Both the position numbers and the translations under genes were made by a program. Source: a virus. Taken from it: a stretch of 27,162 bases of DNA. Shown in pieces: positions 2,893 to 26,515 of the stretch. The stretch lies in IMG/VR virus record IMGVR_UViG_3300032265_000762, positions 1-27,162 of that record; one strand, written 5' to 3'. The notes under the pieces are model-generated. The model made no database searches, was not told where the DNA came from, and saw nothing but the letters and a program-made list of their open reading frames with translations. The stretch's first letter is position 1; each line of letters opens with the position of its first letter.

Positions 2893-2926
2893 GTTCGCTC
2901 TGCTCTGTTGTTATTCAATATTTACC
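2893..2926 (-). promoter_or_regulatory. Gap with weak late-promoter-like octamer
   Basis: This 34-nt gap separates two fibre genes. Read on the minus strand it contains GGTAAATA (2926-2919), matching the T4 late promoter TATAAATA at 6 of 8 positions. It is the weakest of three such sites in the window. A direct repeat AGAGC AGAGC follows just before the start codon. In AT-rich DNA a 6/8 match has little weight alone. Confidence 0.3.
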
Positions 2927-7491: not shown

Positions 7492-10400
7492 TTAACTCTT
7501 GTAATCTGTGTACCAAATACCTGGACTAACCTTTAAAAACTCAGCAATTTTACTGTTATCATTTAGAATGTTAACTGGGTTATTTTTATCACCATCCCAA
7601 GCAGTACCAATTTGTTTGATTACAGTAATATGGGTTCCTTTGTTTAACAAATTAGTCAATGTTAAAGATTTAGATATTCCATCTACTGTAAAATCTGCTG
7701 GCAATGCTATATCACCTGCTGGGCTATAAGGGTTAACATTAACGTTGTGAACACTATACCCTTGTTTTTTCAAGCGAATATTGCCTATGAAGAATGTCCA
7801 GTTAGCACTATCGGCACTGAATGTTGCTCCACTTGAGTGCGCATTTGTACATCTATAGGTATAGCTACCTATGTTAACAATATCTCCAACATTGTATGTA
7901 ACTCCAGAGGCCCATGCTGATCCATCGTTATAACCGCCAACAAACACTTCGATATCGCCAGGAACTTCTGCTAGGACTTCGTGAGTTTTTGCGTCTTTTA
8001 TCGGATATAATTGCGGAGCAAAACTTAAATTAACAGTATTTGTTCCGTCACTTATGATTTGTTCTGTCAACGTTGTTTCGGTATAAGGTATAGTTTCAGT
8101 TGGGCCGATATCTTGAACAAACGCACCTGCTTTATGTAACTTATAAACTCCTGTACCTAGTGTACCACGACGTAATCGGCTTAATGTATTTCCATTTTTA
8201 GCAAAATATTCAATACGTTCCCCTCGTATTTCAATTACGCCTGGCTTATTAGCTGTAGGATTTGGTACATCAAAATTGTCAGCGTCAGTTAAAACCATAC
8301 GGGTATCGTTCAAATGTAAATCTTGAGCAAGTGTAGTCCTCTTGCTCAAACTCAATCGTTTGTAACTTACTCTGTTTAACATGTCTTTGAACTGCATGTA
8401 AGCAATTCCTGGGGATAATACATTACTGCCAAATGTAATAAATGTTAAACGATCAGTTTTATTAGGTAATACTGCCAACTGAACGCTTTGTTTATCGTCG
8501 TTTAATTTGTAGTCAATCGTAGGTGTGAGTAATGTGCCGTTTTTAGTAATCCAAACATAACCGTCATCTAAGATTGTTCTATCTAGTTTTATTAAACCTG
8601 AAGCTAGATTTTTATAGTAATAGTACTCAACAGTATTTGGTGTTAACGAAATATTAGACGTTACATCAATACTAGATCTGCGTATGTCTAGCATACTATG
8701 ATTATATGAGCTAGTTACCTCAACTGTGTGTGTATGGTCGTAGGCTTGAGTAAATGTAATTGTCTTTGCTATCGGATCGTAGAAATAGCTTTCGTCAGTG
8801 GTAATACTTACAAGTAATGTTGTTCCTTTGTACAGTGTATAAGCATTTTTTGTCAGCGTAATAATAATTCCAGAAAGATCTACAGTATAGTCTGCGCCTA
8901 ATTTTAAAGTTATACCATTGGCTATAACATTAATATTTTGAATTGTTGCTGAGTAAGGAACAATCTTTGCTGGATCAATATTATAGTTTAGTCGATTTTT
9001 TCCGATTGTAAAATAGTTATCGTTAGGACCCGATAAGATAGTTTGATCTACTCGAACTATCATATTAGATTCGTTTGGTAAACTTGTTCCAACTGGATAG
9101 GCTAATGAATATGTTAGATTTACTCCGTTAGTTGGTATAATTTCTTTGTTTGTCACAACAAATGTTTGCTGTGCTCCACTAACTATAATAAAATTAATTA
9201 AACTTCCTGCTGTTGGAGGTGTAACAAATTTAAAACCAACTGCATTAGCAAAATCGTATGTGGCATCTGTTTTAAATATTCTTGGATTTGCCGCTAGTCC
9301 ATCAACATAAATTACTGATGTGATATCTTTCAACCAAGGTGCTTTAGTTACAAATTCAGTAGTAATTCCGTCGCCGACAAAATAGTCAAGATCAAGTATG
9401 TTAGAACCAGCAAATCCTATATTGAATACAGTTACAACAGTATGAGCTGCAGGCGTTACAGTTAGCGTAATTTTTTTATTTCTGTAATCAACTGCATAAT
9501 CAATTCCTTCAGTTTTTATTACACTACCGACCTTAACAATTAACGCTTTTGGACTATTAGGTTGTTGTGCCAATGTGTAAACGTTTTGTGTACCGTCTGC
9601 AATAAAATTTTCTACTTGAATATTTGCGGCGCCCGAATTAGATCTATCATAAACTTTAATAGCAACAGCGTCTACTACTTGCCCAGGTACAACTTCTTCG
9701 GGAGCCGGACTAGTAGTAGGAGTAACCATGCCATCGCCGTCGACTATGATATCATCTGCCGACAGACCCGTAGCAGTACCATACGCTAGATCTCCGCCAA
9801 CTAGAGAAGTATCATAATCGTTAGCATTTGGTAATATAGATCCGTCGCTGGTACTACGTCTAAAAATAAATTCGTCACCAGTTAATACTGTATATGTGTT
9901 TGGTATTGCAAATGTCTTTTGATATAATCCTGGAGCAACTTGACTATCGGGTATGCCATCAGATACTAAAGTTGACATTATAGCATTTTTATTAGTTTGA
10001 TTAATAGTACCGTAATTTGTATCGTCTAACCTAGTAGGACTAATTTTTCCGGTAATATTTAAAACTGTTATGCTCGGTAATCCTGTTGGATATACAATAT
10101 TGTTAAGTACGGCAGTTCCATTAGCATTGATTGTAATATCGGTTGGCTGTGCTAGTGTTTTAGTAAAAGTTAATTCAACACCTGAATTAATATTTGCGTA
10201 CAAAATTGTATTAATAGCAACTGTTTGACTGTCAATAATAGCAGTAACACGAGAATTATAAATCAAAGAACTAATGGTCAAACAAGATACTATATCATTA
10301 ACATTAATGTATGTTGTATCGGTAACAGTTAATTGTGTACTACCCGAGAAGTTAAATGTAAATGTTAAATTGCCACTAGGAATACTGTCAGGAGCTCTAT

Positions 10401-13400
10401 TCAATGTGACTGTATTTGTTGCTAGATTAACACTAGCAACTTTATGTATAGCACTACCAATGATAGTGCCCGCTTGTGTTTTTGTTCCAGTAGCTTTACT
10501 TAGATAGCTTACACTAGTTGTTGTACAAGCAGTAACAGTATATGTTCCATCATAAACAACTGGTAACACATTGTTAACAATAATTGTTTGACCTATACTG
10601 TATGGTGGGGTTGATACTGGATCAAATGTTAGTGTAACTGTTGTTCCATCACCGCTAGCACCTGTAGTTGTTAATACAGCTACATTCGAACTAAAACCTA
10701 CTCCAATAATACCCATACCTGGAAAAATTCCGCTAGCATCGACCACAACTAAAGTTGTTTCATAGCTGCCGTCTGGATTATATGTGGTAATATGTCCGGA
10801 CGTATTGATATGACTAATTGTTGTGGCTGTTGGACTGTTATCAACAATATTATAACCAAATTCTAATTGATTAGCATAGGTGCCAGTTCTGTTATCGTAA
10901 GAATCAATATTATTTTTAATTTGATAAACGTTTATTTCTGTACCGTTAGCAGGTACGTATGGCAAGGTAAAACTATGTGTGTTAGCTGCCACGGTTACAA
11001 AGTAATCGTCAAAGCTACTATCAAAGTTATCCCATTTATCTTTATAATACGGGCTTGATCCCCATCCTGTTTGTACATTAAATCCAAGTCCGTTAACTAT
11101 AGCACCACCATAATCGATACCTGTCATTAACTGTGCTAGATCTTTTCCTAACATACCAGTGCCAGGTTCGTAATAAAATTCAATACGATCTGCGGCATTT
11201 AACATGGCTGGATTAATTAAGTAAGTTACAGATAATACAGATCCATCAGCAGGAGCATTACCTATAGCAAATTTTAATAATCCTGAATATTGTGTGTAAC
11301 CGTTAACTGTTGAAGCCACTGTGCTTAATGTATATAACTCTCTTAAAACTGGAATTCCGTCAACAGTAATTGTACTTTGTCCTACACGAATATCCGGAGC
11401 CCAAGTTAATGGGAATTTCAACTGACTTCCGTTGCCACTAAACGTCTGAGTTTGTTGTAATTGAGTTATGTAATTTGTGTGTGATACACGGTCAAATCTC
11501 ATGCCAATAGTAGTAGTACGAATAACAGTTTCACCAATAATAGCAACTGCCCTAGCTTGTACTCCACCGACACGTAGTCCACCGTCTAAAGTAATTGTAG
11601 GAGTTGTTAAGTATCCGCTACCTGGTGTTAATAAAACAACACGAGTCACAACACCGTTGCTGATAAAGGCTCTACCAGTAGCACCAAGGCCGCTTTCGCT
11701 AGTAAAGACTACCTGAGGAGGAATATTATACCCGGATCCGCCGTTGATTAATACAATTTCTGTTACAATAAAACCTACGTTGTCTAACCAGAATTTCCAA
11801 GGATATGTTTCTATAGCAGTATCGCCAGCAGAAAGTTTACCGTGTTGAACAGTCACATCAATTATACCGACTTTGCCATTTTCATAAATTGGCATTACAT
11901 CAAAATCAGTAATAGGTAACTGAGCTGTGTCTAAACTTTCATAGTTGCTTACATATTCTCTAACTTTTGTTCTATAAGGTTTAACCTCCGCAACATAGTC
12001 TTCAAAGTTTGCTAAATTATCAACTGGATAATTCACTGGCTGATTTAACGCACCAACATTGTGTTGTGCTTTAACAAAACTAGTTTTAAATATCCAATCT
12101 ACATATACTTGTTCGCTCAATACATAATGAACACTATTGAAGAAAAGATTTAAGTATTCTTGTTTTAAATTATCTATAAAAATATTATTTTTAATAGTGT
12201 TTAAGATAATTCTTAGTTCAGCTGACGCAACCGTATCAAATCCTTCCACGTCAAAGATACTAGCATCGTAACCAACATTTGTTCCTGAAAAATTATATAA
12301 ATTTTTATTAAATTGTATAGTTCCATTTTGTATACCTACAGTTTGATAACTTTGTGTCCAATCAAAGGATACTACACTACTATATCTTTCCAATAAGGTC
12401 CAATTTCCTGAATTATTATTATTAACTCGAACTAATATACCTATACCACTATCCCTCAGTTGACTAATTTGATCTGCGATAGTATATAATTCAGAAAAAT
12501 TGTTAACTACAAAATCTGGAGCATCAAATTGAGAATATCCAGTAGCATACCAGTCAGCGTAACTCCAGTAATTTCTTACATCATAACTTTGTGTTAGTGT
12601 TCTAGACCATTGTTTGTAGACAGGATCGTAAGTGTATACACTCCATTGATTGTTTGCTTGACTATCACTATGAACTAGTACAGCATAGTTTCTAATAGAA
12701 CATTGTGTATTATTATCATACCCGTTGCCTGGAGATAAAATAGTAGCACCGATAACTTGTCCAAGAGCGTTAATAGTTGCTCTTACTACTGCGCCTGTTC
12801 CTGATCCAGAAATTTCTATATATGGAGATGTTGCTAGTCCATTTATACTAGGGACGTAGCCTTTACCAGCAAAATTTATTATAATACCTGTAACTTGTCC
12901 GTTTGTAACAATTGGACTTAAGTTTGGTTTAGAAAAACTAGCAATAGTAGCATATGGTAACTCAGCATCTGTATCCAATATAGCATCGTACAAGCCAGCA
13001 ACCACGGTTGGTTCTTTATCATAACTTGTTAAACTGCTAATGTTAAGTTCAGCAATTTGATTATTAATCATTACACCATTTGCTTGTTCGATCAACTGCT
13101 TCAATGCTTCGAATCGATTAATGAACATACCCTGTCTAGGTCTGTTTTCTATACCGTATTTTAATTTAAATGGTAGTCGTGGATCAGGGACTACTTTACC
13201 TTGTTTATCTATTCCGCACAAACTATCAAACCATTTTTGTTCAATTGTTTTAGGTAAATTAATATTAGGATCATTGCTAATCATTTTGTACTGTGTATGT
13301 ACATTCTGATCAGTTTTATCTATTTCCCAATATTCTACGGACAGTACAACATCCGATGCTGTTAGATAACCTTTAACATTAGTTAAACTAAATGTGCTCA

Positions 13401-16400
13401 ATCCAGTAATTGCTAGATATGTATAATCTTGTCCTCGAGGATTAGCAATTAGACTTGCCACATCCATAGCTGACATGTTTCTTCCAGCCACATACGGAAT
13501 TACAGTTTTATTCTTAACCCAGAAATAGTAAGTATTTTTAAATGTTTTACTAATTTTATCATATGACTGAGTTACCGCATAAGCTGTATCACCGTACAAA
13601 CTCTTGCCGCTTATTCCGCTAGCTAGACCGGCATTGGTATCAGCTTGGAGATCCCATTGACTTGGCTTTAGTGTAGAAGATACCCATTCGTAGATATCTA
13701 TACTAGCATTAGTAGCTAATTGATTCCATGTGCTATTTCTATAAACAATGTCCTGATCGTAACTGTTAATAAATTTAGCTGTTCTTAGATCCCACCATAA
13801 TTGACCAATTTGTTTTTTTGACCATATACTAGTAGTATTCACGACCAAATTGCTTGGTCCTATGCTATAGACTGCTGGATCATAAAAAGTTTTATATCTA
13901 ATTTCTTCTTCGGCAGGTCCTGGAATTTTTCCTTGTATTGGATCTACTACATCTAAATATTTTAATAAACTACCAGTCGCTCTGTTATACAAAAATGCTT
14001 TTTTAATTTTTTTAACATCGGCAACTGGTACTTGATTTGTGTGTATTGTCCAAGTATATGTGTTTGGTAGTTTATAATAATTATAAACTACACCTGTGTA
14101 AGTATAAGAATTTACAGTGGTATTAGGAGCCCCAGCAAAAATTTGATTTGATCCTACGGCAAATGCCAATCCTAAACCGTCAGTAGCAGAACTAGTTGCC
14201 GATATTGTTTCGCTGTATACCCATTTTGTATCATAGCGATCGTATATGTCAATGCGCCCAGATGAATTAACTGTCGAAAAGACTACCAATGTCTTATAAT
14301 CATTCATAAAGGCAATTTTAGTTCCAAAATCATCTACAACATCTGATCTAGGATTGACAGAATAAGTGTTAGTGGTATCATATTGGCCAGTTGCTAACAA
14401 CGGATATACTTTAACAACGCCAGTTGTCGAAGCTTCTGGATCGCTGACAGCAATGTATTGAGCCGAGTCTGAAACACTGATACTTGAAGCAAACGCAGTT
14501 GTTGTTCCCGATATTGTCTGACTAAAGACAAAGCCATTGCCTGAATTTTTGTATATTGTAAGAGATCCAATTTGTGATCCACCGCTTGCCGCAACAGCCA
14601 AAGTCAATCCATCATTACTTACGTTTATCGAACTACCAAAATTGCTACCTGTAGTTGCTCCCATATAGGTGATATCATACTGCCAGCTGGTTGTAACAAA
14701 ATTTAGTACACCCGACGGTGTGCTATCTGGGCTTCCTGAAAGTTCAAGAGTTGTACTACTTAATACTGCCGTAACTGTTTGGCCGGTGATAAATCCTACA
14801 CCCTGAACTACTAGTCCTACTGTAATACCCGTAGTACTAGTAACTACTAGTGTAGCATAACTACTACCAATAGGATTGTAAGCAGAACTTGCTTTAATGT
14901 TGGAAGTATAAATTAATTTATAAACGCGGCCTGTACCGCTGTTATATCCAACTGCTCCTACATATAATTCATTAGTATTAAATGCGATTGTTGATCCAAA
15001 TTGTTCTCCGGTAACGTGACTTGGATCTAATCCAACAGAAGGACTTACAATAGAATCTACTAATGAATAACTATTTCCAAATGATTGTTGATATAAACTA
15101 ATCACACCTTGATTAGTATTCGAACTGTTATTAGCTATTGAAGTAATATCTACTGGAATATATGGTATTTGTTTCCAAGCTGATATGCCGTACGGCGCAA
15201 CAATTTGATAACCATTAACAAATCCAGTAATAGGTGTTGGTAAAGTTACTAACAAATCATTTATAATATCTAAACCGCCAACACTGCTACCTTTGATTAA
15301 TACCTGATCTCCTGCAAGATACCCTGTTCCTGTGCCCGACACTGTAACAGTATAACCAGCTAGGACGGGTTTGACAGTAAATTTTGCTCCAGACGCTAAT
15401 ACTAAAGAACCTGACAAACTTGTATAAGTTTGCGGCGGAGTTCCTACACTTGACCAAGTGATAGTACTGATAGATGCTTGAGCAACTGACTGAACTACAA
15501 TAGTGATATCGTTAACCGAATCTACACCGCCTACTTGAGATCCTAAAATAGTAATTCTATTACCTACTTTGTAACCTGCTCCGCCGGATATAACATTTAC
15601 TGTATAACTTGTTCCAATTACTACAACATTGAATCGAGCACCTTGGGCTTGATTTTGAGTAATGCCTGTTACATTACTATATTGATGTAATAACGCATTG
15701 GTTGTTTGATAATAATAGGTACCGTCCGTTACAATAGCCTTAGCAATGTAATCAGTATTGTTAGGTGTAGAATATATGCCTTTGTAATTAGTTGCCACAT
15801 ATCCAGATGTAGGACTGCCTATTGCTAGCCATTTTTTATCATTACTTATTGCCACAGTAGTGGCAGCAGATGCTCTTGAATTTTTATTTACTGACCCTAC
15901 TAGGACACTAAAATCTGATATATTTTGTCCACCAAGATGTGATACATCGACAGTTAGATGATCGTTTACTTGATAGTTTGTGCCGCCGTAGTTTAATAAA
16001 ATACTAATCACTAGTCCATTGGCAACTGTTACTGTGGCTGTAGCTCCTGATCCGGTACCAGTAGTAGTGTATTTCAAAGGAACATTTGGATATACAGTTG
16101 TTCCAGTAGCTGGTACATAACCTGAGCCGCAATTATTACTTACTTGAACTTCAAAAGGAGTATTTGATTGACCTCCAAGATATTTTGCGTCTGCTGTTAG
16201 TATCTGACCACTTACATACTGCGTATTATATCTTACTAATTGAACAAATGTAACTACGCCATTGGTGATTGTAATGTTTGCTACTGCATCAGTTCCGGTA
16301 CCGCCGATCAACGGCACATTAGAATATGAAGCTATACCGTTGGCTGGCAAGTAACCTGACCCACCTGATACCAAAGTTAGTGATAAACCTAAGCCAGACG

Positions 16401-19400
16401 TATTAAAAGATGTCAGTGTGCCTTGTACACCCAATCCAGGTGTTCCAGAATAGTTAGCTGAAATAAAAGGTGTTTGAATTAATTGATTTCTTGACCAATC
16501 AGTTACTATACCCGCTTTTGAATATATAGCTGTTTGTCCGTCTGATGCTGTTATTGCTGCAATATCTCCAGCTTTATTCATAGCAATCGCACGACCAAAA
16601 TTATGATTATTAGCTAATGCCTGGTCATTAATGACTGAACTATAGTATACAGGATCATAAATCCAGCTAGCCCAATTGGTATTAGATGCTGAAATTTTAT
16701 CAGTCCATAACAACTGTCCAACTACCGGAGTTAGTGGGTTTAAAGATTCCAGTTGATCTATCGATGAATTTAAAGCACGTTGAGATATAAAATAAAATAT
16801 TTCAATAGTTGCTAGGTCATTAAAAGGAGCAAACACTACATTAGGTTTTAAATTAACTGTAAATGAATTTGTAGTCGTTGCTGTTATCACATAGAAACTA
16901 TTTATTTTTGCCGTACCTATAATTCCAACGCAATCTCCTATATTGAATGTAACTGTAGTAGCTACTGTAATAGTGATTGTATTTGGTGTAGGACGAGTAT
17001 CAGATGTAACAGATCCTACCGATCCGGCAGCATATTTTAATGTGTATCTATAAACATTCCAGTCATAAGGAGGAGGAGCAAACGCACACCATATATAATT
17101 GCCATCAACATATTTTGTTGGATCATAAGAAGTTATATCTGACAAATGACCTAAACTTAAATTAACATCTTTTGAATTCACATAGCCTGCGCTGAGCAAC
17201 AAAGGTTTATATTTTTTAAGAACGGGCCACGGGTTAGAATCGTATCCGTTAGGTAATACATATACATCGCTGGGCAAAACTTGTGTGATAAGTGGATTTA
17301 AATTTTTATCTATTTGATTAACTAAACTGTACCCTTGGGGATTACTTCTTACTAGTCCTTCATTTAATACAAATTCAATTTGTTGATATGCGTTAGCCGC
17401 ACCATATTGGCCGACTCTTACTGCCCACTCTTCATAAAATACTAGACTTTCTTTGTGCTCGCTACTAAGCACATCAAATAATTTATTAAGAACATTCTGC
17501 GTACCTTTTTCTCTAATCATTCCTTGGTAGAATTTAAATTCACTAACATCATCTTGAATAATATTATCGAGATACTGACGTTTTTGATAACCAATTAAAT
17601 GCTGACCCATTTTTTGTTGTGCACTATCAAAGCTGTCGACATCGAGTCCATAAAAATCCTGGAACTGTGTAGCAATGTTCGTCCAGTTAGGAATTATCTG
17701 ACTAGTTGGTTTTTTAGATAATTCTGTCCATTGTGTTAAATCAAAAATTTCTTTACCTGGTAAAAAAGCATTAGCACTATAATAGTATCCTTGATAATTT
17801 ATAATATCACCAAGATTATAATCTTGCCACTGTTGCCAGTTTTGTATTTTTGCTGCATCAAAAATAAATCCTGGAATGTCAAGGCCGCCGTACCAGCCAG
17901 TGGTAATATAACCTGAAACTTTGATACGTTCTTGTCTGTAACCACTTTCTGGATTGTAGATAGTATCATTAAATATTGTAGTGTTATTAAGAATAACAAC
18001 ATGCTCATGCTGAACAAGATAAAAACTTGCTCCGTAAATACCGTCTTTATTTCTTGGACTATATTGTACTGTATTGTTTTTTCGATAGCTATCTAAATCT
18101 GCTTTAGATATAGCTGTACCATTTACTTTAAATATTTCATATTGATTAAAAGGATTATTAATATCGTCTACTACATTTAATGGAGTTACAAACGTAATAT
18201 TACCAGCGGCCGGACTTAAACTTATAACACTTGCTCCGTCAACACTCAATCCGTCTAACTTGTTAAAATAACTATATTCAAATACGTCCGATGCTGGTAC
18301 ATTTCGTAAAGCACTATAGTATTCACCATTGTATCGAACAATATTTCCGTAAGGAACTACTAGATTTGGTGTCCAATCTGCCCATTTATCGTGTCCAGTA
18401 CTCCATTTTTGAGTCGACCAAAACATAAACTCTTTGGCACTAGTTTCCCAGTTGCTTACAATTCCTAAATTAAGATTGAATTGATTGAATAGGAATCCTT
18501 GATCTTTTAAATATTCACCGTAGCCTAACAAGAAATCAACTACATCCTGTTGAGTACTAAATGTTGTTCCATAAGGTACTGTAATTGCTTGTGTATTATC
18601 CCATGCTTTTCTAAAATTAGCAGTAATGCCACCGATGATTGGTAAGAACGGTAAGCTAACAAATTGTGTATTATCAAAAGTTACACCCGAAGTCGTTAAC
18701 ACTAGTGCTTTGAAAAATCCGCCGTTATATTTTATAATGGTTCCTGCGGCATACTGTTCATTAGGCGCCCAGTTAACAAAACTTTCTGAAATACCGCCAA
18801 CATTTATGTCAGCACCTGGTTGAGAATAAGCATAGTACTTAAAGTATGGTTGGGTCTGACTGTAACCACTTACTTGGTAACCGCCTTGCAATCTAGTTAC
18901 GATAACTCCACTGTATGTTAATTTTTTAGTAGGACTAGAACTATTCAAGAACACTTGATAATCTTCTTTTGGAATAAAAACACTACCTTTGCTACTAGGA
19001 GTTTTGCTATCTAATAATAAATTAAACTGATCTTGATTTGTAAAAGAACCAACTCTATAGGACAGACGAATATCCATAGTTGTTAGATCATTGGCATAAC
19101 CTTCATAGGATTTTAAATTATTACTAAAAATATAATTTAAAATAAGATTGACCACATAGTTAATAACTCCAGCAGTTTGTACTCGAGTAGTGCTAGAAGA
19201 AATACTAGGTAGTATAATATCTCGAGGCCTGATTCTTAATCCAGTGTCCTTGTAAATCAATTGATTAGCTTTGTTTTTCACAACACGACTTCTATCTAAC
19301 AACACACCAAATGTTTTAGATGGAGTCAATAATGCGCTTGTAATTAACAAGCTAAATGGATAATGACTGCTCCGACGCCAACTGGCCTCAACAGGAGCAA

Positions 19401-22400
19401 CATCACCAAACACAAAGTTAAAATCTATACTGGGTTTTATTGTGCCTAATGCTAGTCCTGAGAATAAAGGACTAATAAGATTTCCAGATTCGTCAACCGG
19501 AATATGATTCATCAAAAATGGTTTTACATAATCTGCCAAATAGATGCCTGGTGATCCTGGAGCTCTTAGCATACCGTCTGCAATATCTTGCCACATTACT
19601 CGGTTATCTTTGGTATACGGAGCAGGACCATACATTTGATCCCACCAGCTAGGTTTAATAGTTTGTCCTAACATTTCCCAAGGACAAATATTAGGTCGGT
19701 CAGTGTTCAATAACCAACGATACACACCTCTCCAGTACCCTGGTAAACTTGTCTTATCGGGAGCACTATTCTTGGAATAGTTGTAGGTAAAACTATTGTT
19801 ACTATCATAACTTAATGGTTTTGAAAAATCCACACCGACTTCTTTAGCCCAACGATAAAAATTAGGAGCTAGCACCTCATTAAATTCATCTCGAGTATAT
19901 GAGTTTGTTTTACCGTAGCTAGGAATTAGATTATGTACATCAAATATATCTGGATTATATTCAACTTTGATATTATTAAAAATACGTTTTTCTAATTCTA
20001 AGATTAAATCATCACGATAATCTCCATAAGCCAGTACTTGACTGCCATCGTGACCTTGTATCATTAATTGAGGAGCAACTAGTGTGGTATCTAGATAAAT
20101 CTGTGGCTCGTACTTGGGATAGATGCCTAATTTAGTAGGTGTTTCTGGAACAAAAGACCCATCTGTATTATCATATTCCACTGTTGTAATTACATCACCG
20201 TTATTCATTGTTAACGAGTCTGTCATTACTACAAAACCTTGATTGTTAAATGTATAATCTCTACCGTAAATTAATTGTAAACCATTTAGATAAACACCCA
20301 CTGCTTTATTTGAAAGAGTTTCTAGTGTAAATACCGTACTTAGTGGATATGTTTTAATTCTATAATCTACAACTGTGATATTTGTACTTACTTTTGCTCC
20401 ATAAGGAACCATATCGCTAAAATAATAAGGAGCTGTTTTAGGCTTATTACCATTTATTTTTTGCATTATAAGTTCTAACATCACTGACGGTTCAGCATCA
20501 ATACCTAAGTTTTCAGCTGTGGTAATAAAAATTCGTTTAAAATGATTATAGTCATCTCTACTTTGTTCAATAGCTCGTATAACATTGTTTGCCTCGCTGG
20601 TAATATGATACATTGACAAACTTGCCGGACCGCTATGCTGTACAAATTTAGTGCCATATGCTGATGTATTTCCTAAGTCTCTAAGATTACTGCGACCTGG
20701 AAATGAACCAACAAATACTGTTTCTAAATTATCTACTATACTGTTAACATGATCCGATACTTCGCCGAGTGTGAAATCGCCCATTGAGTTGTTTAGTGGA
20801 TTGTTTTGTAAATTAATAGGTATTTCATAATAGCCTTTGCTGTTAATAGGCTGAGCTGCAAACGCTCTAATAGTCAATACATCGGTCAATGCTATTGGAG
20901 TTGCCAATACTATTTTTTTAAACAGTTGACCGTCTACTAATTGCCATAAACTAAGATCTACTCTTTTACCGTTTACATATACTCTAACAATTAGATCAGA
21001 TAAATTTGAAATATCATCAAATATATCTAAATTAAAATTATTTGTTTTATTAGAATTTTCATAAATTCTAATGGCGGCTTGAGTATTTGTAACTAATGAA
21101 GTTTGCCAGCCATTATTGTATACTGTATTACCGGCATAAGTTTGACCAACAAGATAACCCACATTGATATTTTTTATTAGTAATGCTGTATCTTTTTTGT
21201 ATTGAAAACTATCTGTGGCAAGATTAAAATTAAAAACAATATCGCCTATGTTACTAACATTTTTATAACTTAATGGGAATCCCAAAGTTTTATCAGCAAA
21301 ACCAGATCCGACTTTGTAAGAAAATACGGCTGTACCTTTAAATGTTGATCCTGAATAAACGCCGGTATCTCCATAGCTAATGCCGTTATCGTCTACAACA
21401 TCAAATAACGGAGTCTGATTGGTATCCCTCTTTTGCTGGCTTTTAATCCATGTTGTACCATTAAACCAATACATTAAACTTTGATTAGTAATACCTTGAT
21501 TAATTAATACTGTTTGATTTAATTCAGGTGTAACTATTTCAACTAAATGTATTTGTTTTGATTGACCTGTATGTTTTACATCTATGAATTCTACACGATA
21601 TATTTTATTAGTCACTAATGTATCAGTATCTGCTGTAAATAAAATTGTCTGATTATTTGCTAATGAGATTCCGTCAATACTATAGCCTGCTGAACCTTCG
21701 ATGGTTGAAAATGCATCTGTTGTAAAATTGTCAATTAGATCAACATCATCTATGGCAACTGTGCCAAAATTAAATAATTTTAAATCTGCTTTAAATTCAA
21801 TAATAGGACGAGTTGCCCTTGCCAATTGATTTAAATTAGGAATATCTCCGTTGGCCACAGCACTAGCAGTTATTACATCTTGGTGGAACCAACGATTATA
21901 ACGTGACCAAGGATTATGATCTCGGCTGGCACGATTAATCACAATGTAATCTGCAACCGCCGCATAGCCTGTTGCATCACTAAAGGGTTCTTGATCAAAC
22001 GGTGTGTTATCAAATTCAACAGTCTGTGATACAGTATACGGACTAACAATTTCTAAAACACTTTGAGGAACTAGTTTAATCGCAGTACCAACACCTTCTA
22101 CATAGTAGTTTCCTGTAGCATATTTTGCCGGTGTAACATTGCCGCCAAAATTAACTTTCATTCCGTTACTTAGTTGTGTACCATTGGTTAATTTATAAGT
22201 TTTTTTACCTAATACATCTGCTTCAACATTGATATAAGTATTTTGATCAATGTCATAAATTTCTATCACGCCGCCGAGATTAATATCATTTTCACTTTGA
22301 TAATAAATCATAGTAGGAGCATCGTTGGCTATGGTCCAAGTAATCGTTCCTTTCTGTACAGCATACGTGTCTATGCCAGAATTTAAATATCTGTCTACTT

Positions 22401-23049
22401 TGCCAGTAGTTCTTGATAATTTAAAACTAAACGCATTTCCTGGACTGTTGATTTCAAATGTATAAGTTTGACCTTTGTATAATTTTAATACAGGATTTGG
22501 AGTAAACCCGTTAGGAGTAAACACATACTGATTATCTTCACCTACGGCAACTAGATCAACTTTTATAGTACTAACTACTTTTTGTTGCTGACCAAACACA
22601 GTAATTGGTTCAGGGCCGTAAGGAATCCAATAATAATTTTGAAAATTAATTATTTTATCCCAATCAATGTGCGGATCCCAACTGTAAAATTCTTCTTGAT
22701 TTAATCTGGAGTGATTGGCAGTATTGCCGCCAAATACTCCTAATTGATTAATATAGTCGATGTAATCTTTATAAAATGTTACATTGTTTAAACTATCTTG
22801 AATTACAACACTGGGCTCTAATTGATAATTTTGTCTATTTGTTTCTACAGCAGTAACATAGATATCCGATCCTGTGGCTGCCTTGGCATTTTTTCTTCCA
22901 ATATAACCGTTAACCTTTTTTACCGAACCTGGTTGATATAATTGGTCAAGTGTTGCTTGTAAGAATTTTTTATTGCCAGGAGTTTGATAAAACCCAGGTA
23001 ATAAATTAGAAGTAAGACTGCTGTTTCCAAAAGGCGTATTATTAGCCAT
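7492..23049 (-). CDS. Giant virion structural protein, probable baseplate component, 5185 aa
   Basis: A single uninterrupted frame of 5185 codons, roughly 560 kDa if unprocessed. The N-terminus (LLPGFYQTPGNKKFLQATL, then WDPHIDWDKIINFQNYYW, PYGPEP) and the segments CPWEMLGQTIKPSWWDQMYG, ETPTKLGIYPKYEP, YQKRQYLDNIIQDD with EFKFYQGMIREKGTQNVLNK, and near the C-terminus GVIEIRGERIEYF with LRRGTLGTG resemble virion structural proteins I associate with T4-like marine phages. Recognisable modules in order: degenerate cupredoxin-like domain (164-266), three CBM5/12-like modules (1424-1778), seven-bladed FG-GAP-like propeller with insertions (2144-3003), GxGY repeats, SGI..G..GVGF modules (about 4097-4300), tandem dG..F beta modules (about 4480-4870) and a fourth CBM-like module (5043-5089). 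It follows gp6, where T4 has gp7 and gp8. The ATG overlaps the gp6 stop by 8 bp and has GGAG six nt upstream. No signal peptide or membrane segment is evident. Structural role fairly sure; exact T4 counterpart unknown. Confidence 0.9.
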   Translation of the reverse strand: MANNTPFGNSSLTSNLLPGFYQTPGNKKFLQATLDQLYQPGSVKKVNGYIGRKNAKAATGSDIYVTAVETNRQNYQLEPSVVIQDSLNNVTFYKDYIDYINQLGVFGGNTANHSRLNQEEFYSWDPHIDWDKIINFQNYYWIPYGPEPITVFGQQQKVVSTIKVDLVAVGEDNQYVFTPNGFTPNPVLKLYKGQTYTFEINSPGNAFSFKLSRTTGKVDRYLNSGIDTYAVQKGTITWTIANDAPTMIYYQSENDINLGGVIEIYDIDQNTYINVEADVLGKKTYKLTNGTQLSNGMKVNFGGNVTPAKYATGNYYVEGVGTAIKLVPQSVLEIVSPYTVSQTVEFDNTPFDQEPFSDATGYAAVADYIVINRASRDHNPWSRYNRWFHQDVITASAVANGDIPNLNQLARATRPIIEFKADLKLFNFGTVAIDDVDLIDNFTTDAFSTIEGSAGYSIDGISLANNQTILFTADTDTLVTNKIYRVEFIDVKHTGQSKQIHLVEIVTPELNQTVLINQGITNQSLMYWFNGTTWIKSQQKRDTNQTPLFDVVDDNGISYGDTGVYSGSTFKGTAVFSYKVGSGFADKTLGFPLSYKNVSNIGDIVFNFNLATDSFQYKKDTALLIKNINVGYLVGQTYAGNTVYNNGWQTSLVTNTQAAIRIYENSNKTNNFNLDIFDDISNLSDLIVRVYVNGKRVDLSLWQLVDGQLFKKIVLATPIALTDVLTIRAFAAQPINSKGYYEIPINLQNNPLNNSMGDFTLGEVSDHVNSIVDNLETVFVGSFPGRSNLRDLGNTSAYGTKFVQHSGPASLSMYHITSEANNVIRAIEQSRDDYNHFKRIFITTAENLGIDAEPSVMLELIMQKINGNKPKTAPYYFSDMVPYGAKVSTNITVVDYRIKTYPLSTVFTLETLSNKAVGVYLNGLQLIYGRDYTFNNQGFVVMTDSLTMNNGDVITTVEYDNTDGSFVPETPTKLGIYPKYEPQIYLDTTLVAPQLMIQGHDGSQVLAYGDYRDDLILELEKRIFNNIKVEYNPDIFDVHNLIPSYGKTNSYTRDEFNEVLAPNFYRWAKEVGVDFSKPLSYDSNNSFTYNYSKNSAPDKTSLPGYWRGVYRWLLNTDRPNICPWEMLGQTIKPSWWDQMYGPAPYTKDNRVMWQDIADGMLRAPGSPGIYLADYVKPFLMNHIPVDESGNLISPLFSGLALGTIKPSIDFNFVFGDVAPVEASWRRSSHYPFSLLITSALLTPSKTFGVLLDRSRVVKNKANQLIYKDTGLRIRPRDIILPSISSSTTRVQTAGVINYVVNLILNYIFSNNLKSYEGYANDLTTMDIRLSYRVGSFTNQDQFNLLLDSKTPSSKGSVFIPKEDYQVFLNSSSPTKKLTYSGVIVTRLQGGYQVSGYSQTQPYFKYYAYSQPGADINVGGISESFVNWAPNEQYAAGTIIKYNGGFFKALVLTTSGVTFDNTQFVSLPFLPIIGGITANFRKAWDNTQAITVPYGTTFSTQQDVVDFLLGYGEYLKDQGFLFNQFNLNLGIVSNWETSAKEFMFWSTQKWSTGHDKWADWTPNLVVPYGNIVRYNGEYYSALRNVPASDVFEYSYFNKLDGLSVDGASVISLSPAAGNITFVTPLNVVDDINNPFNQYEIFKVNGTAISKADLDSYRKNNTVQYSPRNKDGIYGASFYLVQHEHVVILNNTTIFNDTIYNPESGYRQERIKVSGYITTGWYGGLDIPGFIFDAAKIQNWQQWQDYNLGDIINYQGYYYSANAFLPGKEIFDLTQWTELSKKPTSQIIPNWTNIATQFQDFYGLDVDSFDSAQQKMGQHLIGYQKRQYLDNIIQDDVSEFKFYQGMIREKGTQNVLNKLFDVLSSEHKESLVFYEEWAVRVGQYGAANAYQQIEFVLNEGLVRSNPQGYSLVNQIDKNLNPLITQVLPSDVYVLPNGYDSNPWPVLKKYKPLLLSAGYVNSKDVNLSLGHLSDITSYDPTKYVDGNYIWCAFAPPPYDWNVYRYTLKYAAGSVGSVTSDTRPTPNTITITVATTVTFNIGDCVGIIGTAKINSFYVITATTTNSFTVNLKPNVVFAPFNDLATIEIFYFISQRALNSSIDQLESLNPLTPVVGQLLWTDKISASNTNWASWIYDPVYYSSVINDQALANNHNFGRAIAMNKAGDIAAITASDGQTAIYSKAGIVTDWSRNQLIQTPFISANYSGTPGLGVQGTLTSFNTSGLGLSLTLVSGGSGYLPANGIASYSNVPLIGGTGTDAVANITITNGVVTFVQLVRYNTQYVSGQILTADAKYLGGQSNTPFEVQVSNNCGSGYVPATGTTVYPNVPLKYTTTGTGSGATATVTVANGLVISILLNYGGTNYQVNDHLTVDVSHLGGQNISDFSVLVGSVNKNSRASAATTVAISNDKKWLAIGSPTSGYVATNYKGIYSTPNNTDYIAKAIVTDGTYYYQTTNALLHQYSNVTGITQNQAQGARFNVVVIGTSYTVNVISGGAGYKVGNRITILGSQVGGVDSVNDITIVVQSVAQASISTITWSSVGTPPQTYTSLSGSLVLASGAKFTVKPVLAGYTVTVSGTGTGYLAGDQVLIKGSSVGGLDIINDLLVTLPTPITGFVNGYQIVAPYGISAWKQIPYIPVDITSIANNSSNTNQGVISLYQQSFGNSYSLVDSIVSPSVGLDPSHVTGEQFGSTIAFNTNELYVGAVGYNSGTGRVYKLIYTSNIKASSAYNPIGSSYATLVVTSTTGITVGLVVQGVGFITGQTVTAVLSSTTLELSGSPDSTPSGVLNFVTTSWQYDITYMGATTGSNFGSSINVSNDGLTLAVAASGGSQIGSLTIYKNSGNGFVFSQTISGTTTAFASSISVSDSAQYIAVSDPEASTTGVVKVYPLLATGQYDTTNTYSVNPRSDVVDDFGTKIAFMNDYKTLVVFSTVNSSGRIDIYDRYDTKWVYSETISATSSATDGLGLAFAVGSNQIFAGAPNTTVNSYTYTGVVYNYYKLPNTYTWTIHTNQVPVADVKKIKKAFLYNRATGSLLKYLDVVDPIQGKIPGPAEEEIRYKTFYDPAVYSIGPSNLVVNTTSIWSKKQIGQLWWDLRTAKFINSYDQDIVYRNSTWNQLATNASIDIYEWVSSTLKPSQWDLQADTNAGLASGISGKSLYGDTAYAVTQSYDKISKTFKNTYYFWVKNKTVIPYVAGRNMSAMDVASLIANPRGQDYTYLAITGLSTFSLTNVKGYLTASDVVLSVEYWEIDKTDQNVHTQYKMISNDPNINLPKTIEQKWFDSLCGIDKQGKVVPDPRLPFKLKYGIENRPRQGMFINRFEALKQLIEQANGVMINNQIAELNISSLTSYDKEPTVVAGLYDAILDTDAELPYATIASFSKPNLSPIVTNGQVTGIIINFAGKGYVPSINGLATSPYIEISGSGTGAVVRATINALGQVIGATILSPGNGYDNNTQCSIRNYAVLVHSDSQANNQWSVYTYDPVYKQWSRTLTQSYDVRNYWSYADWYATGYSQFDAPDFVVNNFSELYTIADQISQLRDSGIGILVRVNNNNSGNWTLLERYSSVVSFDWTQSYQTVGIQNGTIQFNKNLYNFSGTNVGYDASIFDVEGFDTVASAELRIILNTIKNNIFIDNLKQEYLNLFFNSVHYVLSEQVYVDWIFKTSFVKAQHNVGALNQPVNYPVDNLANFEDYVAEVKPYRTKVREYVSNYESLDTAQLPITDFDVMPIYENGKVGIIDVTVQHGKLSAGDTAIETYPWKFWLDNVGFIVTEIVLINGGSGYNIPPQVVFTSESGLGATGRAFISNGVVTRVVLLTPGSGYLTTPTITLDGGLRVGGVQARAVAIIGETVIRTTTIGMRFDRVSHTNYITQLQQTQTFSGNGSQLKFPLTWAPDIRVGQSTITVDGIPVLRELYTLSTVASTVNGYTQYSGLLKFAIGNAPADGSVLSVTYLINPAMLNAADRIEFYYEPGTGMLGKDLAQLMTGIDYGGAIVNGLGFNVQTGWGSSPYYKDKWDNFDSSFDDYFVTVAANTHSFTLPYVPANGTEINVYQIKNNIDSYDNRTGTYANQLEFGYNIVDNSPTATTISHINTSGHITTYNPDGSYETTLVVVDASGIFPGMGIIGVGFSSNVAVLTTTGASGDGTTVTLTFDPVSTPPYSIGQTIIVNNVLPVVYDGTYTVTACTTTSVSYLSKATGTKTQAGTIIGSAIHKVASVNLATNTVTLNRAPDSIPSGNLTFTFNFSGSTQLTVTDTTYINVNDIVSCLTISSLIYNSRVTAIIDSQTVAINTILYANINSGVELTFTKTLAQPTDITINANGTAVLNNIVYPTGLPSITVLNITGKISPTRLDDTNYGTINQTNKNAIMSTLVSDGIPDSQVAPGLYQKTFAIPNTYTVLTGDEFIFRRSTSDGSILPNANDYDTSLVGGDLAYGTATGLSADDIIVDGDGMVTPTTSPAPEEVVPGQVVDAVAIKVYDRSNSGAANIQVENFIADGTQNVYTLAQQPNSPKALIVKVGSVIKTEGIDYAVDYRNKKITLTVTPAAHTVVTVFNIGFAGSNILDLDYFVGDGITTEFVTKAPWLKDITSVIYVDGLAANPRIFKTDATYDFANAVGFKFVTPPTAGSLINFIIVSGAQQTFVVTNKEIIPTNGVNLTYSLAYPVGTSLPNESNMIVRVDQTILSGPNDNYFTIGKNRLNYNIDPAKIVPYSATIQNINVIANGITLKLGADYTVDLSGIIITLTKNAYTLYKGTTLLVSITTDESYFYDPIAKTITFTQAYDHTHTVEVTSSYNHSMLDIRRSSIDVTSNISLTPNTVEYYYYKNLASGLIKLDRTILDDGYVWITKNGTLLTPTIDYKLNDDKQSVQLAVLPNKTDRLTFITFGSNVLSPGIAYMQFKDMLNRVSYKRLSLSKRTTLAQDLHLNDTRMVLTDADNFDVPNPTANKPGVIEIRGERIEYFAKNGNTLSRLRRGTLGTGVYKLHKAGAFVQDIGPTETIPYTETTLTEQIISDGTNTVNLSFAPQLYPIKDAKTHEVLAEVPGDIEVFVGGYNDGSAWASGVTYNVGDIVNIGSYTYRCTNAHSSGATFSADSANWTFFIGNIRLKKQGYSVHNVNVNPYSPAGDIALPADFTVDGISKSLTLTNLLNKGTHITVIKQIGTAWDGDKNNPVNILNDNSKIAEFLKVSPGIWYTDYKS
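7783..7923 (-). other. CBM5/12-like module 4 of the giant protein
   Basis: Residues 5043-5089 read GSAWASGVTYNVGDIV, then YTYRCTNAHSSG and NWTFF. This is the W..G..Y..GD.V...G..Y.C...H.......W pattern of small chitin-binding type 3/CBM5-12 modules and is the clearest of the four. It lies near the C-terminus, far from the other three. Confidence 0.6.
8440..9620 (-). other. Tandem beta modules of the dG..F type in the giant protein
   Basis: Roughly residues 4480-4870 contain repeated segments with a short hydrophobic start, an F(x)xDG-T...F/Y element, a V.VDG or V..NG turn and a following DY: FIADGTQNVYTLAQQP, YFVGDGITTEFV, IIPTNGVNLTYSLAYP and ITKNGTLLTPTIDYKLND. Related copies occur elsewhere (FSGNGSQLKFPL near 11430; VYLNGLQLIYGRDYTF near 20290). 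They look like repeated immunoglobulin-like or fibre beta sandwiches; the fold is inferred. Confidence 0.5.
10155..10765 (-). other. SGI..G..GVGF-type modules, one apparently split by an insertion
   Basis: Residues near 4097-4300 hold VVDASGIFPGMGIIGVGF, then about 70 residues of different character (TTGASGDG through TQAGTII), then VNLATNTVTLNRAPDSIPSG and NLTF. The two outer parts together equal the unsplit module at about residues 2735-2785 (TTGITVGLVVQGVGFITG, then TLELSGSPDSTPSGVLNF). A further related module follows (TVTDTTYINVNDIV to SGVELTF). Confidence 0.55.
11580..11740 (-). repeat. GxGY repeat pair in the giant protein
   Basis: Near residue 3770 the sequence reads GGSGYNIPPQVVF, GLGATGRAFISNGVVTRV, PGSGYLTTPTITLDGG. 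This is the GSGY.. P.V...G......A.....GVVT.V.....GSGY pattern common in phage fibre and tail proteins. A similar pair occurs at about 12720-12870 (GKGYVPSINGL, PGNGYDNN). Confidence 0.65.
14041..16620 (-). other. Seven-bladed FG-GAP-like beta-propeller with inserted modules
   Basis: Seven blade signatures of the form F-G-x-[AST]-[IV]-x-[FVM]..D....A[VI]....G.V.[IV]Y occur at about residues 2151 (FGRAIAMNKAGDIAAITA), 2392 (ASAATTVAISNDKKWLAIG), 2684 (FGSTIAFNTNELYVGAVG), 2804 (FGSSINVSNDGLTLAVAA), 2853 (FASSISVSDSAQYIAVSD), 2908 (FGTKIAFMNDYKTLVVFS) and 2959 (LGLAFAVGSNQIFAGAP). Blades 4 to 7 are about 50-55 residues apart; blades 1-2, 2-3 and 3-4 are about 240, 290 and 120 apart because extra modules are inserted. 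FG-GAP/integrin-alpha-like propellers usually have seven blades. I see no strict calcium-binding DxDxDG loops. Confidence 0.7.
15240..16380 (-). repeat. GxGY/LGG repeat modules inserted between propeller blades
   Basis: Between blades 1 and 2 and between blades 2 and 3 lie repeated units: GGSGYLPANG near 2226 and GSGYVPATG near 2307, each followed by a segment ending in YLGGQS or HLGGQN; then GGAGYKVGNRITILGSQVGG near 2487 and GTGYLAGDQVLIKGSSVGG near 2570, both ending in ND(I/L). The last two are close paralogues of each other. Confidence 0.7.
17716..17850 (-). other. CBM5/12-like module 3 of the giant protein
   Basis: Residues 1734-1778 read NWQQWQDYNLGDIINYQGYY, then FLPGKEIFDLTQWTELS. 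The pattern W..Y..GD...Y.G.YY.A....PG......W..L matches a CBM5/12-type fold, with several exposed aromatics that could stack on sugars. No cysteine is present. Confidence 0.55.
18252..18390 (-). other. CBM5/12-like module 2 of the giant protein
   Basis: Residues 1554-1600 read KWADWTPNLVVPYGNIVRYN, GEYYSAL, then a short loop to FEYSYFNKLDG. It has the W....Y...IV.Y.G.YY.A layout seen in the other copies; the terminal Trp is replaced by Phe/Tyr. Confidence 0.5.
18649..18780 (-). other. CBM5/12-like module 1 of the giant protein
   Basis: Residues 1424-1467 read FVNWAPNEQYAAGTIIKYNG, GFFKAL, then TFDNTQFVSLP. The W....Y..GT.I.Y.G.F..A spacing matches modules 2 and 3. It lacks the terminal Trp, so it may be structural rather than sugar-binding. 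Confidence 0.5.
22252..22560 (-). other. Cupredoxin-like domain lacking copper ligands
   Basis: Residues 164-266 have the cupredoxin layout: YVFTPNGFTPNPVLKLYKGQ, TYTFEINSPGNAFSFK, then TIANDAPTMIYYQSENDINL and GGVIEI. In copper-binding relatives the ligands are a His in the PGH element and C-x2-H-x2-M before GG. Here these positions hold Asn, Ser, Asp and Leu, so the fold is probably kept without type 1 copper. Confidence 0.6.
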
Positions 23050-26000
23050 TAGATGCTCCGTTTGTTGCGCTGGTTATATTTTGTGTATTAAGAACTGTGG
23101 TTAATGCGTTGCCTGTTACTGTTTTAAGATTGGCGCTGGTTAATCCCGATACTATAACTATATCGCTAGCTTGGGCACAACTTATAAAAATCTGATTGCT
23201 AGGACATTGAATTTCAAACAAACTACCAAAGTATTGGCCTGCTTGCTTTGGAACGATAACAAAACTAGTAATGTCTGGATTTAATTGTGTTAGTACATAC
23301 GTGGATAATTCAGTAAAATAGAATGTATCACCAAAATTCCAATTATCTAGGGAAAAGAAAGTATTGATAGCTGTTAATATTCTAGCAATGATATTAGAAC
23401 TACTGGCAGTACTGCTTGAATTTTGAACTACATTAAATGTTGCTTGTAAACTTAAATCTGCTTGGGCTCCAAACAATAATTTATAGCTGACTGGATGATA
23501 AACAATTTCATCGCTAATTGATTTGATTAAATTTAAATTAGGACTCAATGCTGAATTTAATTCGTTACTGCTTGGAGGCAACGGTTCCGTTGTTACTGCT
23601 CCTGAATTAATCCATTGTCTAAAGTTAGTATCATAAGTTTTTGTTAAAACATAAACATCCATGATATTACTTGCGCTAGGATCAATACGACTATCATAGT
23701 CAGCACTATGAGTATATTGAAATTTTAATTTATCGCGACCAACATACACTTTGTAATCTAATGTTGGAACAAATCCAGCACCGTTGACATACTGTGCCAC
23801 GTAGTTAGTGTCAACAAAATAATAATATTGCCCGTTGATTCCGCTTCCTGGTTTAGTTGGTAAAATTGTAACCGGACCTTTGCCGCCAACTACTGGATCG
23901 TTTACCACATATTTGTAATCTTCTTCGCCTTGGCTTATCATATATCTTTGTTGAACGATGTAAGTTGTAGCATTGTCGGGCGCAACTATATCTAAAAATA
24001 ATTGCGGATCATCAACTATACCACTATTTGTACTATCAGCAAAACTAACAACTATTTTACTAGGATCAATATATCCATCTTGGCCATTGTATTCGCTAAT
24101 AACATTCCAAGTATAATCAAGTGTAAATGGTATAGTAGAACTTGGTTGTTTGTTTACACTTAATATTTTTATAACATCTTCAACTATGGCAGTATTAATG
24201 GTGTCATAAATTTTATTGTTTGTATCAAAATAGAATGTAACTTGTGAATCGCTTTCAAAAACATATCGAAGTTGTCTCGAAGTTACTGTGTAATATTCGT
24301 TATTAGTCGTAAACAACAACATCCAGCTAGAATCTTTGTTGGCATTAGTAAGATCGCCTTGATTACCTAAACTAAAAGATCCTGATGTATTTAAATTTGT
24401 TTCAAATATAATTTGCCAAGTTTGTGTAGATCCATTATAACTTAGGCCAAATGGTTTATTAGCAAACAACAAATCAATCATAGTTGTTATTACTGTTGAA
24501 CTAAATGTACGAGTAAAATTAGGAATAATCTGACTTACGATTGCGCCAGTTGGTATCGATTTGTTCAACATGATTGCGCCATAACCAGAGGCTAACATTC
24601 CAGTATAAGAACTATTAACTAGCAATCCGCGGCCATCGCCAGATACAGATACAACTTCAGCCCACATATACCCAGTTGCGCCAGCTTGAGTTGTATCACC
24701 TGATACTAAAATATTATTATCAGTTGTATCAAAATATTGTGTTGCTGGATTAGGAACTGTAAATTGTATCAAAGATCCTGGTGTAAGATACTGTAATGAA
24801 GTATTCGTATAGCTACTAACTTGTAACGGTTCAGCATTGGTAGTAGTATCAATAAATCCTGTCGAGTTTGTTGTACTAGATGTCACTTGATTCCAAGCTA
24901 CATTACTGTTAGTTAAAGATATTAGATATTGTTGATAAAAGAAATTTCTTAGATTTGGATCATTTAATGTATCATAAATTTGTCCTAATATCACTCCTTG
25001 AATATCAGTTTGTGTTATATAACTAAAATTAAAACTAGATATAAAGGGCTCCTGATATATAACACCATCGTCAGCAAATAAATTTGTACTACTGTATTTT
25101 CCTGTAGGATCTACTAGGTCAAAATAACGACTGATACCACTGCTGGTGCGATTAAGAGCTTTTACCTTAGCAACTTCCGTAGTTGAACTCAGTGGACTAA
25201 TATTATAATCTTCTCCGGTAATCATACGGTTTTGTGTATAATATGTTTGAGGAGCATTGGTTTTAACACTAGCATTAGTTTCGCTAGAAGCTGAATTTGA
25301 AACCGTTGTTTGTAAAGTTAAACTAATAGATAGTTCCTCGCTAGTTCCTTGAGCACTTGTATAGGGAATAGTTATTGATACATTTCTAATATCGGTTGGG
25401 TTTACAGTATAATTAAGATTATTGCTAACTCTATAGTAAGTTCTAAAATTGCCTAATGGCAAATCTCCAAATATTCCATCGCTAAACTGTAAACTGACTG
25501 CATCTGTAGCCCTAGTAATTACACTATAAATTGTTTTAATTTTACTATTCAAACTATTATAGATAATATTGTTGCCAATAGTCGATGGAACTTGCGTCCA
25601 AAGAGTAGATTCTAGACCATTAGTATCTAATTGATAAACCCACAGATCGGTATTATTAATATTTTGTGTAGCAATATCTATTTGTTGATTACTGCTAGGT
25701 TGTGTGACTGTAAAATTTCCTACATTTAAACTGCCTTGTGTAAAATTAAAAAAGAATCCTGTTCCGGCACTACCAGCACCATACCCATCGTCCTTGTATA
25801 CACATGCAATGCTGTTGGCAATCTTTGGAGGTTCTTCATAAATGTATGATTGATTTTTAAAAGTAGTACTGGTTATTTCAAATGTCATGTTACGGCCAGC
25901 AACGGGTTTACTAAAACTGTAAACTGGCACATCTGCGTTAGTAGCATTAAATCTATACTGAGCTGTAGGTACGCCATAAATTGTTGCTTTATCGGCAGGA

Positions 26001-26515
26001 TTTCCATATTGCTGAGTTTGTGGCATGGCCGCGTTTAGCACACTGATAAATTGATCGTACCAATTAGGATTTGAACTGTCATTCCAAGTAACGTACTGTC
26101 CTGATAAATTACGACCATTGCTATCCAATACACTTTCTGTAGTAGATATAACGCTAAATTTTAATAGGCCAGATGCAGCTGTATTTCTTTGAGCATTATA
26201 TCCAATCATACGTGCTAGGCGTAGTACACTGTCTCGTCGACTAGCTAACTCAAGGAAGTTTTCACGGGCATTTAGGTCAACACGGAAAGCTATACTTTGG
26301 CCCACATACGCTATAAGGTCAATCAGGGCAAGGTATTCGCTGGACTCAATATAATCGTTAAAATCTTCAGGAAAATTTGTACGGATATAGTCAATCATTG
26401 TACGGCGTAAGTTGTCAAAGTCGTAGCTTTGGAAGTCGGCGTTCTTGAATGATTGATAAATTTTCTGCCAGTCTTCGCTGACTAACAGGTTGTTTAGTCT
26501 ATCCGTTGAGCTCAT
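23042..26515 (-). CDS. 6: gp6-like baseplate wedge protein, 1157 aa
   Basis: The N-terminal ~130 residues are typical of T4-like gp6: DNLRRTMIDYIRTNFPEDFN, DYIESSEYLALIDLIAYVGQ, SIAFRVDLNARENFLELASR, RDSVLRLARMIGYNAQR. The C-terminus keeps the gp6 pattern NWNFGDTFYFTELSTYVLTQ, FVIVPKQAGQYFGSLFEI and NQIFISCAQASDIVI (about 1057-1120). gp6 dimers form the ring that joins neighbouring wedges of the baseplate. T4 gp6 has 660 residues; the extra ~500 lie in the middle (for example NSASSETNASVKTNAP, EPFISSFNFSYITQTD, and a PVVGGKGPVTILPTKPGSG region). The ATG at 26515 has AGGA six nt upstream. It follows the gp25-like gene after 47 nt and overlaps the giant gene by 8 bp. The identification is firm. 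Confidence 0.93.
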   Translation of the reverse strand: MSSTDRLNNLLVSEDWQKIYQSFKNADFQSYDFDNLRRTMIDYIRTNFPEDFNDYIESSEYLALIDLIAYVGQSIAFRVDLNARENFLELASRRDSVLRLARMIGYNAQRNTAASGLLKFSVISTTESVLDSNGRNLSGQYVTWNDSSNPNWYDQFISVLNAAMPQTQQYGNPADKATIYGVPTAQYRFNATNADVPVYSFSKPVAGRNMTFEITSTTFKNQSYIYEEPPKIANSIACVYKDDGYGAGSAGTGFFFNFTQGSLNVGNFTVTQPSSNQQIDIATQNINNTDLWVYQLDTNGLESTLWTQVPSTIGNNIIYNSLNSKIKTIYSVITRATDAVSLQFSDGIFGDLPLGNFRTYYRVSNNLNYTVNPTDIRNVSITIPYTSAQGTSEELSISLTLQTTVSNSASSETNASVKTNAPQTYYTQNRMITGEDYNISPLSSTTEVAKVKALNRTSSGISRYFDLVDPTGKYSSTNLFADDGVIYQEPFISSFNFSYITQTDIQGVILGQIYDTLNDPNLRNFFYQQYLISLTNSNVAWNQVTSSTTNSTGFIDTTTNAEPLQVSSYTNTSLQYLTPGSLIQFTVPNPATQYFDTTDNNILVSGDTTQAGATGYMWAEVVSVSGDGRGLLVNSSYTGMLASGYGAIMLNKSIPTGAIVSQIIPNFTRTFSSTVITTMIDLLFANKPFGLSYNGSTQTWQIIFETNLNTSGSFSLGNQGDLTNANKDSSWMLLFTTNNEYYTVTSRQLRYVFESDSQVTFYFDTNNKIYDTINTAIVEDVIKILSVNKQPSSTIPFTLDYTWNVISEYNGQDGYIDPSKIVVSFADSTNSGIVDDPQLFLDIVAPDNATTYIVQQRYMISQGEEDYKYVVNDPVVGGKGPVTILPTKPGSGINGQYYYFVDTNYVAQYVNGAGFVPTLDYKVYVGRDKLKFQYTHSADYDSRIDPSASNIMDVYVLTKTYDTNFRQWINSGAVTTEPLPPSSNELNSALSPNLNLIKSISDEIVYHPVSYKLLFGAQADLSLQATFNVVQNSSSTASSSNIIARILTAINTFFSLDNWNFGDTFYFTELSTYVLTQLNPDITSFVIVPKQAGQYFGSLFEIQCPSNQIFISCAQASDIVIVSGLTSANLKTVTGNALTTVLNTQNITSATNGASNG

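Follow-up and report, generated by a model that had tools for sequence, protein, structure and literature searches.

Does the giant tail protein encoded by this viral DNA contain a single beta-propeller and, if so, to what family does it belong, how did it come to lie there and what might it do? We analysed the whole of a 27,162-base IMG/VR virus record (referred to below as the window), which carries seven large genes, all on the minus strand.

The giant protein and its neighbours

Three of the seven genes are the following.

7492..23049, minus strand: giant ORF P0001, 5185 aa, virion structural/baseplate protein of the phrog_10938 family
23042..26515, minus strand: gp6-like baseplate wedge protein (phrog_10646, E = 5.9e-294)
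26563..26994, minus strand: gp25-like baseplate wedge protein (phrog_261 and phrog_43)

The remaining four code for a protein of 202 aa and for three proteins of fibre type, the last of which is cut by the end of the window; this truncated protein (1–2892) contains long runs of GNVTGNV-like repeats.

The phrog_10938 profile, which represents a virion structural protein, matches P0001 on both sides of the propeller (E = 9e-240 in the N part and 8.5e-65 in the C part) and thus extends over the scaffold. The gene order in T4 is 25-6-7, and P0001, with the gp25-like and gp6-like genes directly before it, occupies the position of gene 7. Its homologues in cultured jumbo phages are likewise placed after the gp6 gene, and one of them, gp355 of PA5oct, carries an ESI-MS/MS mark in its database record. 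Position alone is too little to name P0001 gp7; scaffold profiles matched no phage chain and revealed no gp7-type homology in the PDB, and we found no solved structure of the scaffold that would place the propeller in the virion. From the phrog_10938 match and the gp25/gp6 context, we assign P0001 as a baseplate protein of an uncultured large phage, in keeping with the original prediction that the propeller is part of a phage tail protein.

Elsewhere in the P0001 scaffold, two CBM_5_12 modules score just over the Pfam cut-off (aa 1426–1456 and 5045–5076), and aa 161–266 resemble phrog_677, a baseplate wedge tail fiber protein connector (E = 3.7e-11).

Predicted fold and family of the propeller

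Seven FG-GAP-like blades had been predicted for P0001. The seven blade signatures, FGRAIAMNKAGDIAAITAS, AATTVAISNDKKWLAIGSP, FGSTIAFNTNELYVGAV, FGSSINVSNDGLTLAVAA, AFASSISVSDSAQYIAVSDP, FGTKIAFMNDYKTLVVFS and GLAFAVGSNQIFAGAP, were indeed found and span aa 2154–3008 (window 14026–16590), where the AlphaFold2 model also has its strands. The zone and its predicted blades (from the AlphaFold2 model, blade 1 by DSSP) are as follows.

13990..16728, minus strand: whole propeller zone with the strands of the host hairpin, aa 2108–3020
16477..16590, minus strand: blade 1, aa 2154–2191
15046..15858, minus strand: blade 2, aa 2398–2668, split by insertion 2
14662..15000, minus strand: blade 3, aa 2684–2796, split by insertion 3
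14509..14640, minus strand: blade 4, aa 2804–2847
14356..14481, minus strand: blade 5, aa 2857–2898
14200..14319, minus strand: blade 6, aa 2911–2950
14026..14163, minus strand: blade 7, aa 2963–3008

The blade periodicity is not a product of chance, since a profile of compact relatives (n = 19, P0001 left out) scores P0001 with E = 2.8e-98, and P0001 freed of its three insertions with E = 1.7e-110 in a single end-to-end stretch, whereas the best of 200 shuffled controls reached E = 0.03. Twelve relatives were found at first, and a profile search then gave 205 matches. In compact relatives such as L011, the propeller zone measures ~485 aa and is free of any large insertion; that of L012 (3300–8747) reaches ~1,800 aa, far above the other relatives. 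The ORF of L001, a 98%-identical relative, shifts frame inside blade 7 (around 10600–10850), and its alignment with the window shows a two-base difference that may be either an error or a real change. A scan of bacterial and archaeal genomes found no relative. In tblastn searches of cultured phages, the window propeller matched the Atu_ph07 flank alone and the compact propeller of L014 matched nothing, and our literature search returned no paper joining FG-GAP, phage, beta-propeller and baseplate.

The AlphaFold2 model of L011 (11 sequences; pLDDT 73.7, pTM 0.76) has 28 strands that form seven sets of four. Compared with the PDB by Foldseek, this model gives 1,148 matches at E up to 0.001, with G-beta chains on top (TM by target up to 0.75); integrin alpha5 aligns over 473 columns with a TM by query of 0.56. 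Among its best matches in BFVD are FG-GAP repeat proteins from uncultured Caudovirales and from giant viruses, which are the closest predicted viral structures and were compared by structure only. The model of the window protein (964 aa, 26 sequences; pTM 0.68) contains all 28 blade strands, and its blades are mostly at pLDDT 83–97; insertion 1 is unstructured (pLDDT about 25). Its best PDB match is integrin alpha5, with the alphaX and alphaM integrins close behind. Overall superposition on alpha5 is poor (TM by target 0.47, rmsd 19 Å), probably due to the unstructured insertion 1, and we therefore infer ring closure in P0001 from its compact relatives.

The zone might instead be a string of separate beta-sandwich modules with an apparent periodicity, as the missing Pfam match of the window's own sequence and the lack of a confident model for insertion 1 could suggest. 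We rejected this explanation as highly improbable: AlphaFold2 (for L011 and for the window), Foldseek and the family profiles all yield one seven-bladed propeller, and structure prediction gave neither separate sandwiches nor fewer than six blades. Residues ~2108–3020 are thus predicted to form what had been proposed for them, one seven-bladed, four-stranded beta-propeller; the closed ring, like every structure obtained here, is a predicted one.

Sequence searches of Pfam, NCBIfam and the PDB with the window's own propeller gave no match, and its relatives were therefore used for the family assignment. L011 and L024 score 29.9 and 51.4 bits, respectively, against FG-GAP_2 (PF14312; cut-off 23), several further relatives also exceed the cut-off, and 21 of the 26 alignment members match FG-GAP_2 at E up to 0.1 (best 1.3e-13). 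PF01839 has no match over cut-off in the window and is seen at E = 0.094 in a single one of the 26 members. The calcium motif DxDxDGxxD is absent from all 66 aligned propellers, and a looser six-residue calcium motif occurs in eight of them, the window not being among these. By definition, integrin alpha-type propellers have calcium-binding DxDxDG loops in several of their blades (PMC3192720). We consequently rejected an integrin-type (PF01839) propeller for the window and, judging from the relatives, assign it to the FG-GAP_2 (PF14312) type. The likeness to integrin alpha lies in the seven FG-GAP-like blades, and some integrins carry an alphaI domain in a propeller loop; the difference is that integrin propellers belong to PF01839 and have calcium motifs, whereas the P0001 propeller belongs to PF14312 and has none. 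The integrin-alpha-type propeller of the original prediction therefore survives in its blades and not in its family, and the profile comparison suggested with it succeeded for FG-GAP_2 in the relatives and failed for the window itself and for PF01839.

Propellers in phage baseplates are already known (phiKZ gp131, phi11 gp45). The seven-bladed propeller of phiKZ gp131C (PDB 4GBF) is located at the periphery of a jumbo-phage baseplate and is a suggested receptor binder, and phi11 gp45 (PDB 5EFV) is a receptor-binding protein with a propeller platform on the baseplate (PMC4901313, PMC6115969). The former is the C-terminal domain of a separate protein, unlike the scaffold-inserted propeller of P0001, and the profile of the propeller described here gave no sequence match to it. 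The latter has five blades and is trimeric and stand-alone, whereas P0001 has seven blades within a scaffold protein.

Insertion of the propeller and of its loop modules

In the cultured jumbo phages PA5oct, Atu_ph07 and SCTP-2 and in about 25 contigs, the two flanks of the propeller are joined by a short stretch. PA5oct gp355 and Atu_ph07 gp180, proteins of the phrog_10938 kind, resemble P0001 in having the same scaffold on both sides of this site and in following gp25-/gp6-like genes, but have no propeller. Atu_ph07, the giant protein of which is propeller-less, has a separate 'hemagglutinin' (UniProt A0A2L0UZX4) with a similar predicted propeller. The empty site is clearest as a hairpin in L237, where it reads GELIWVDENTNNKWAVYKKGVYSWAQYRTQVDSVDLSKI and was confirmed by eye; at the same position in the window, about 870 residues separate QLLWTDKISASNTNWASWIYDP from WTIHTNQVPVADVKKI. 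Flanks and loop insertions of P0001 are located as follows.

16651..16716, minus strand: N-side strand of the host hairpin (QLLWTDK...NWASWIYDP), aa 2112–2133, which runs on into the C side in relatives without the propeller
13600..14037, minus strand: conserved C-side flank (KIKKAFLYN...DPIQGKIPG...YDPAVY...LWWDLRT), common to propeller-less jumbo phages
15892..16452, minus strand: insertion 1 in loop 1D-2A, aa 2200–2386, two GSGY modules, phrog_6005-like
15124..15795, minus strand: insertion 2 in loop 2B-2C, aa 2419–2642, GAGY and GTGY modules
14692..14886, minus strand: insertion 3 in hairpin 3C-3D, aa 2722–2786, SGI..GVGF module

Judged from this comparison, the propeller in its entirety sits as an insertion in a hairpin of the giant protein. 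Propeller scores across the 253 loci with the flank are 0 (28 loci), 10 (L237) and 65 or more (224 loci), with a clear gap between empty and occupied members. As the loci are redundant and were retrieved through their similarity, these shares should not be read as frequencies; some loci also overlap, and the collections contain fragments. A tree built from the flank requires two changes in the presence or absence of the propeller, which fits a single gain plus a loss in L237, although the root is unsure. We propose that a single lineage of large phages acquired an FG-GAP_2 propeller, probably in one event, at the tip of a beta-hairpin in the baseplate protein. A propeller has its two ends next to each other, so the strands of the scaffold that flank it could still pair. 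Small beta modules would then have entered loops 1D-2A, 2B-2C, 3C-3D and, rarely, others; some of these modules are also present in other parts of the same protein family.

The three enlarged gaps of the original prediction, 2180–2390, 2420–2680 and 2715–2800, lie close to the insertions mapped above, and their proposed modular nature is supported by related phages, in that compact relatives do without them and P0001 aligns end to end once they are removed. Insertion 1 is also carried by L001, L097, L098 and L214. When extra length of at least 25 residues was counted in the 66 aligned propellers, it occurred in loop 1D-2A of 10 sequences, 2B-2C of 41 and 3C-3D of 42; rarer slots are 6B-6C (seven sequences), 4B-4C (two), 4D-5A (one) and 6D-7A (one), and A-B loops were never extended. 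The loop insertions are confined to a few fixed slots and differ between relatives in presence and length. In the usual propeller layout, D-A and B-C loops share one face, so all slots except 3C-3D would be on one face. The modules that make up insertions 2 and 3 are also found in C-terminal parts of proteins of the family, and P0001 has a second GVGF module far outside the propeller (aa 4082–4233). In the slot-2 region, L060 and L067 carry CBM_5_12-like stretches that stay below the cut-off, in L067 by a small margin.

Conservation and possible role

Compared with more distant relatives, the propeller core shows 37–50% identity, whereas the N part of the protein shows 57–74% and the C part 53–68%; the segment preceding the propeller (aa 1901–2107) is as variable as the propeller. 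On these alignments, the propeller is less conserved than the scaffold. Faster evolution also fits a loose structural constraint, and we identified no ligand, receptor or catalytic residue in the propeller.

On balance, we lean towards a propeller inserted in the baseplate scaffold as an exposed, fast-evolving platform, the modular loops of which would contact host glycans or receptors. We infer that each scaffold copy in the virion would bear one propeller projecting from the baseplate, and that the variable loops and modules of this propeller would touch host surface glycans or other receptors as the phage adsorbs. Receptor binding would agree with the variable nature of the zone and with the carbohydrate-binding-like stretches in some relatives.

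While a host-contacting platform is the most likely role, its main rival is a purely structural platform that would dock or space baseplate proteins or fibres and never touch the host. Several fibre genes adjoin the structural protein, the inserted modules are also found C-terminally in the same proteins and may be general structural filler, and phages that do without the propeller exist. The surface of a docking platform, however, should be conserved to roughly the same degree as the scaffold, which does not hold for the propeller, and the insertions vary between relatives; we regard this explanation as possible but doubtful. Propeller folds occur commonly in enzymes that act on glycans, and one of the 26 members has a weak match to a lactonase propeller (E = 0.026), as might be expected if the domain degraded surface polysaccharides like some seven-bladed propellers. 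Such an activity is unlikely, given that no enzyme family exceeds the cut-off in the members whose match tables were read and that the closest structural neighbours (G-beta and integrin) are binding propellers. Tentatively, the host-contacting platform may work as a cassette, in which a fixed seven-bladed ring in the scaffold gains and loses binding modules in its loops and thereby changes baseplate attachment, an arrangement that would have arisen independently of the integrin alphaI domains.

If contact with the host is indeed its role, uncultured large phages of a widespread group carry a probably host-facing module (224 of 253 flank loci, a count that includes redundancy and sampling bias), of which our searches of cultured phages gave no example. 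The members at hand include some that have and some that lack the propeller, and likewise for each loop module; they allow one to trace, step by step, how a nested domain insertion grew in a virus particle.
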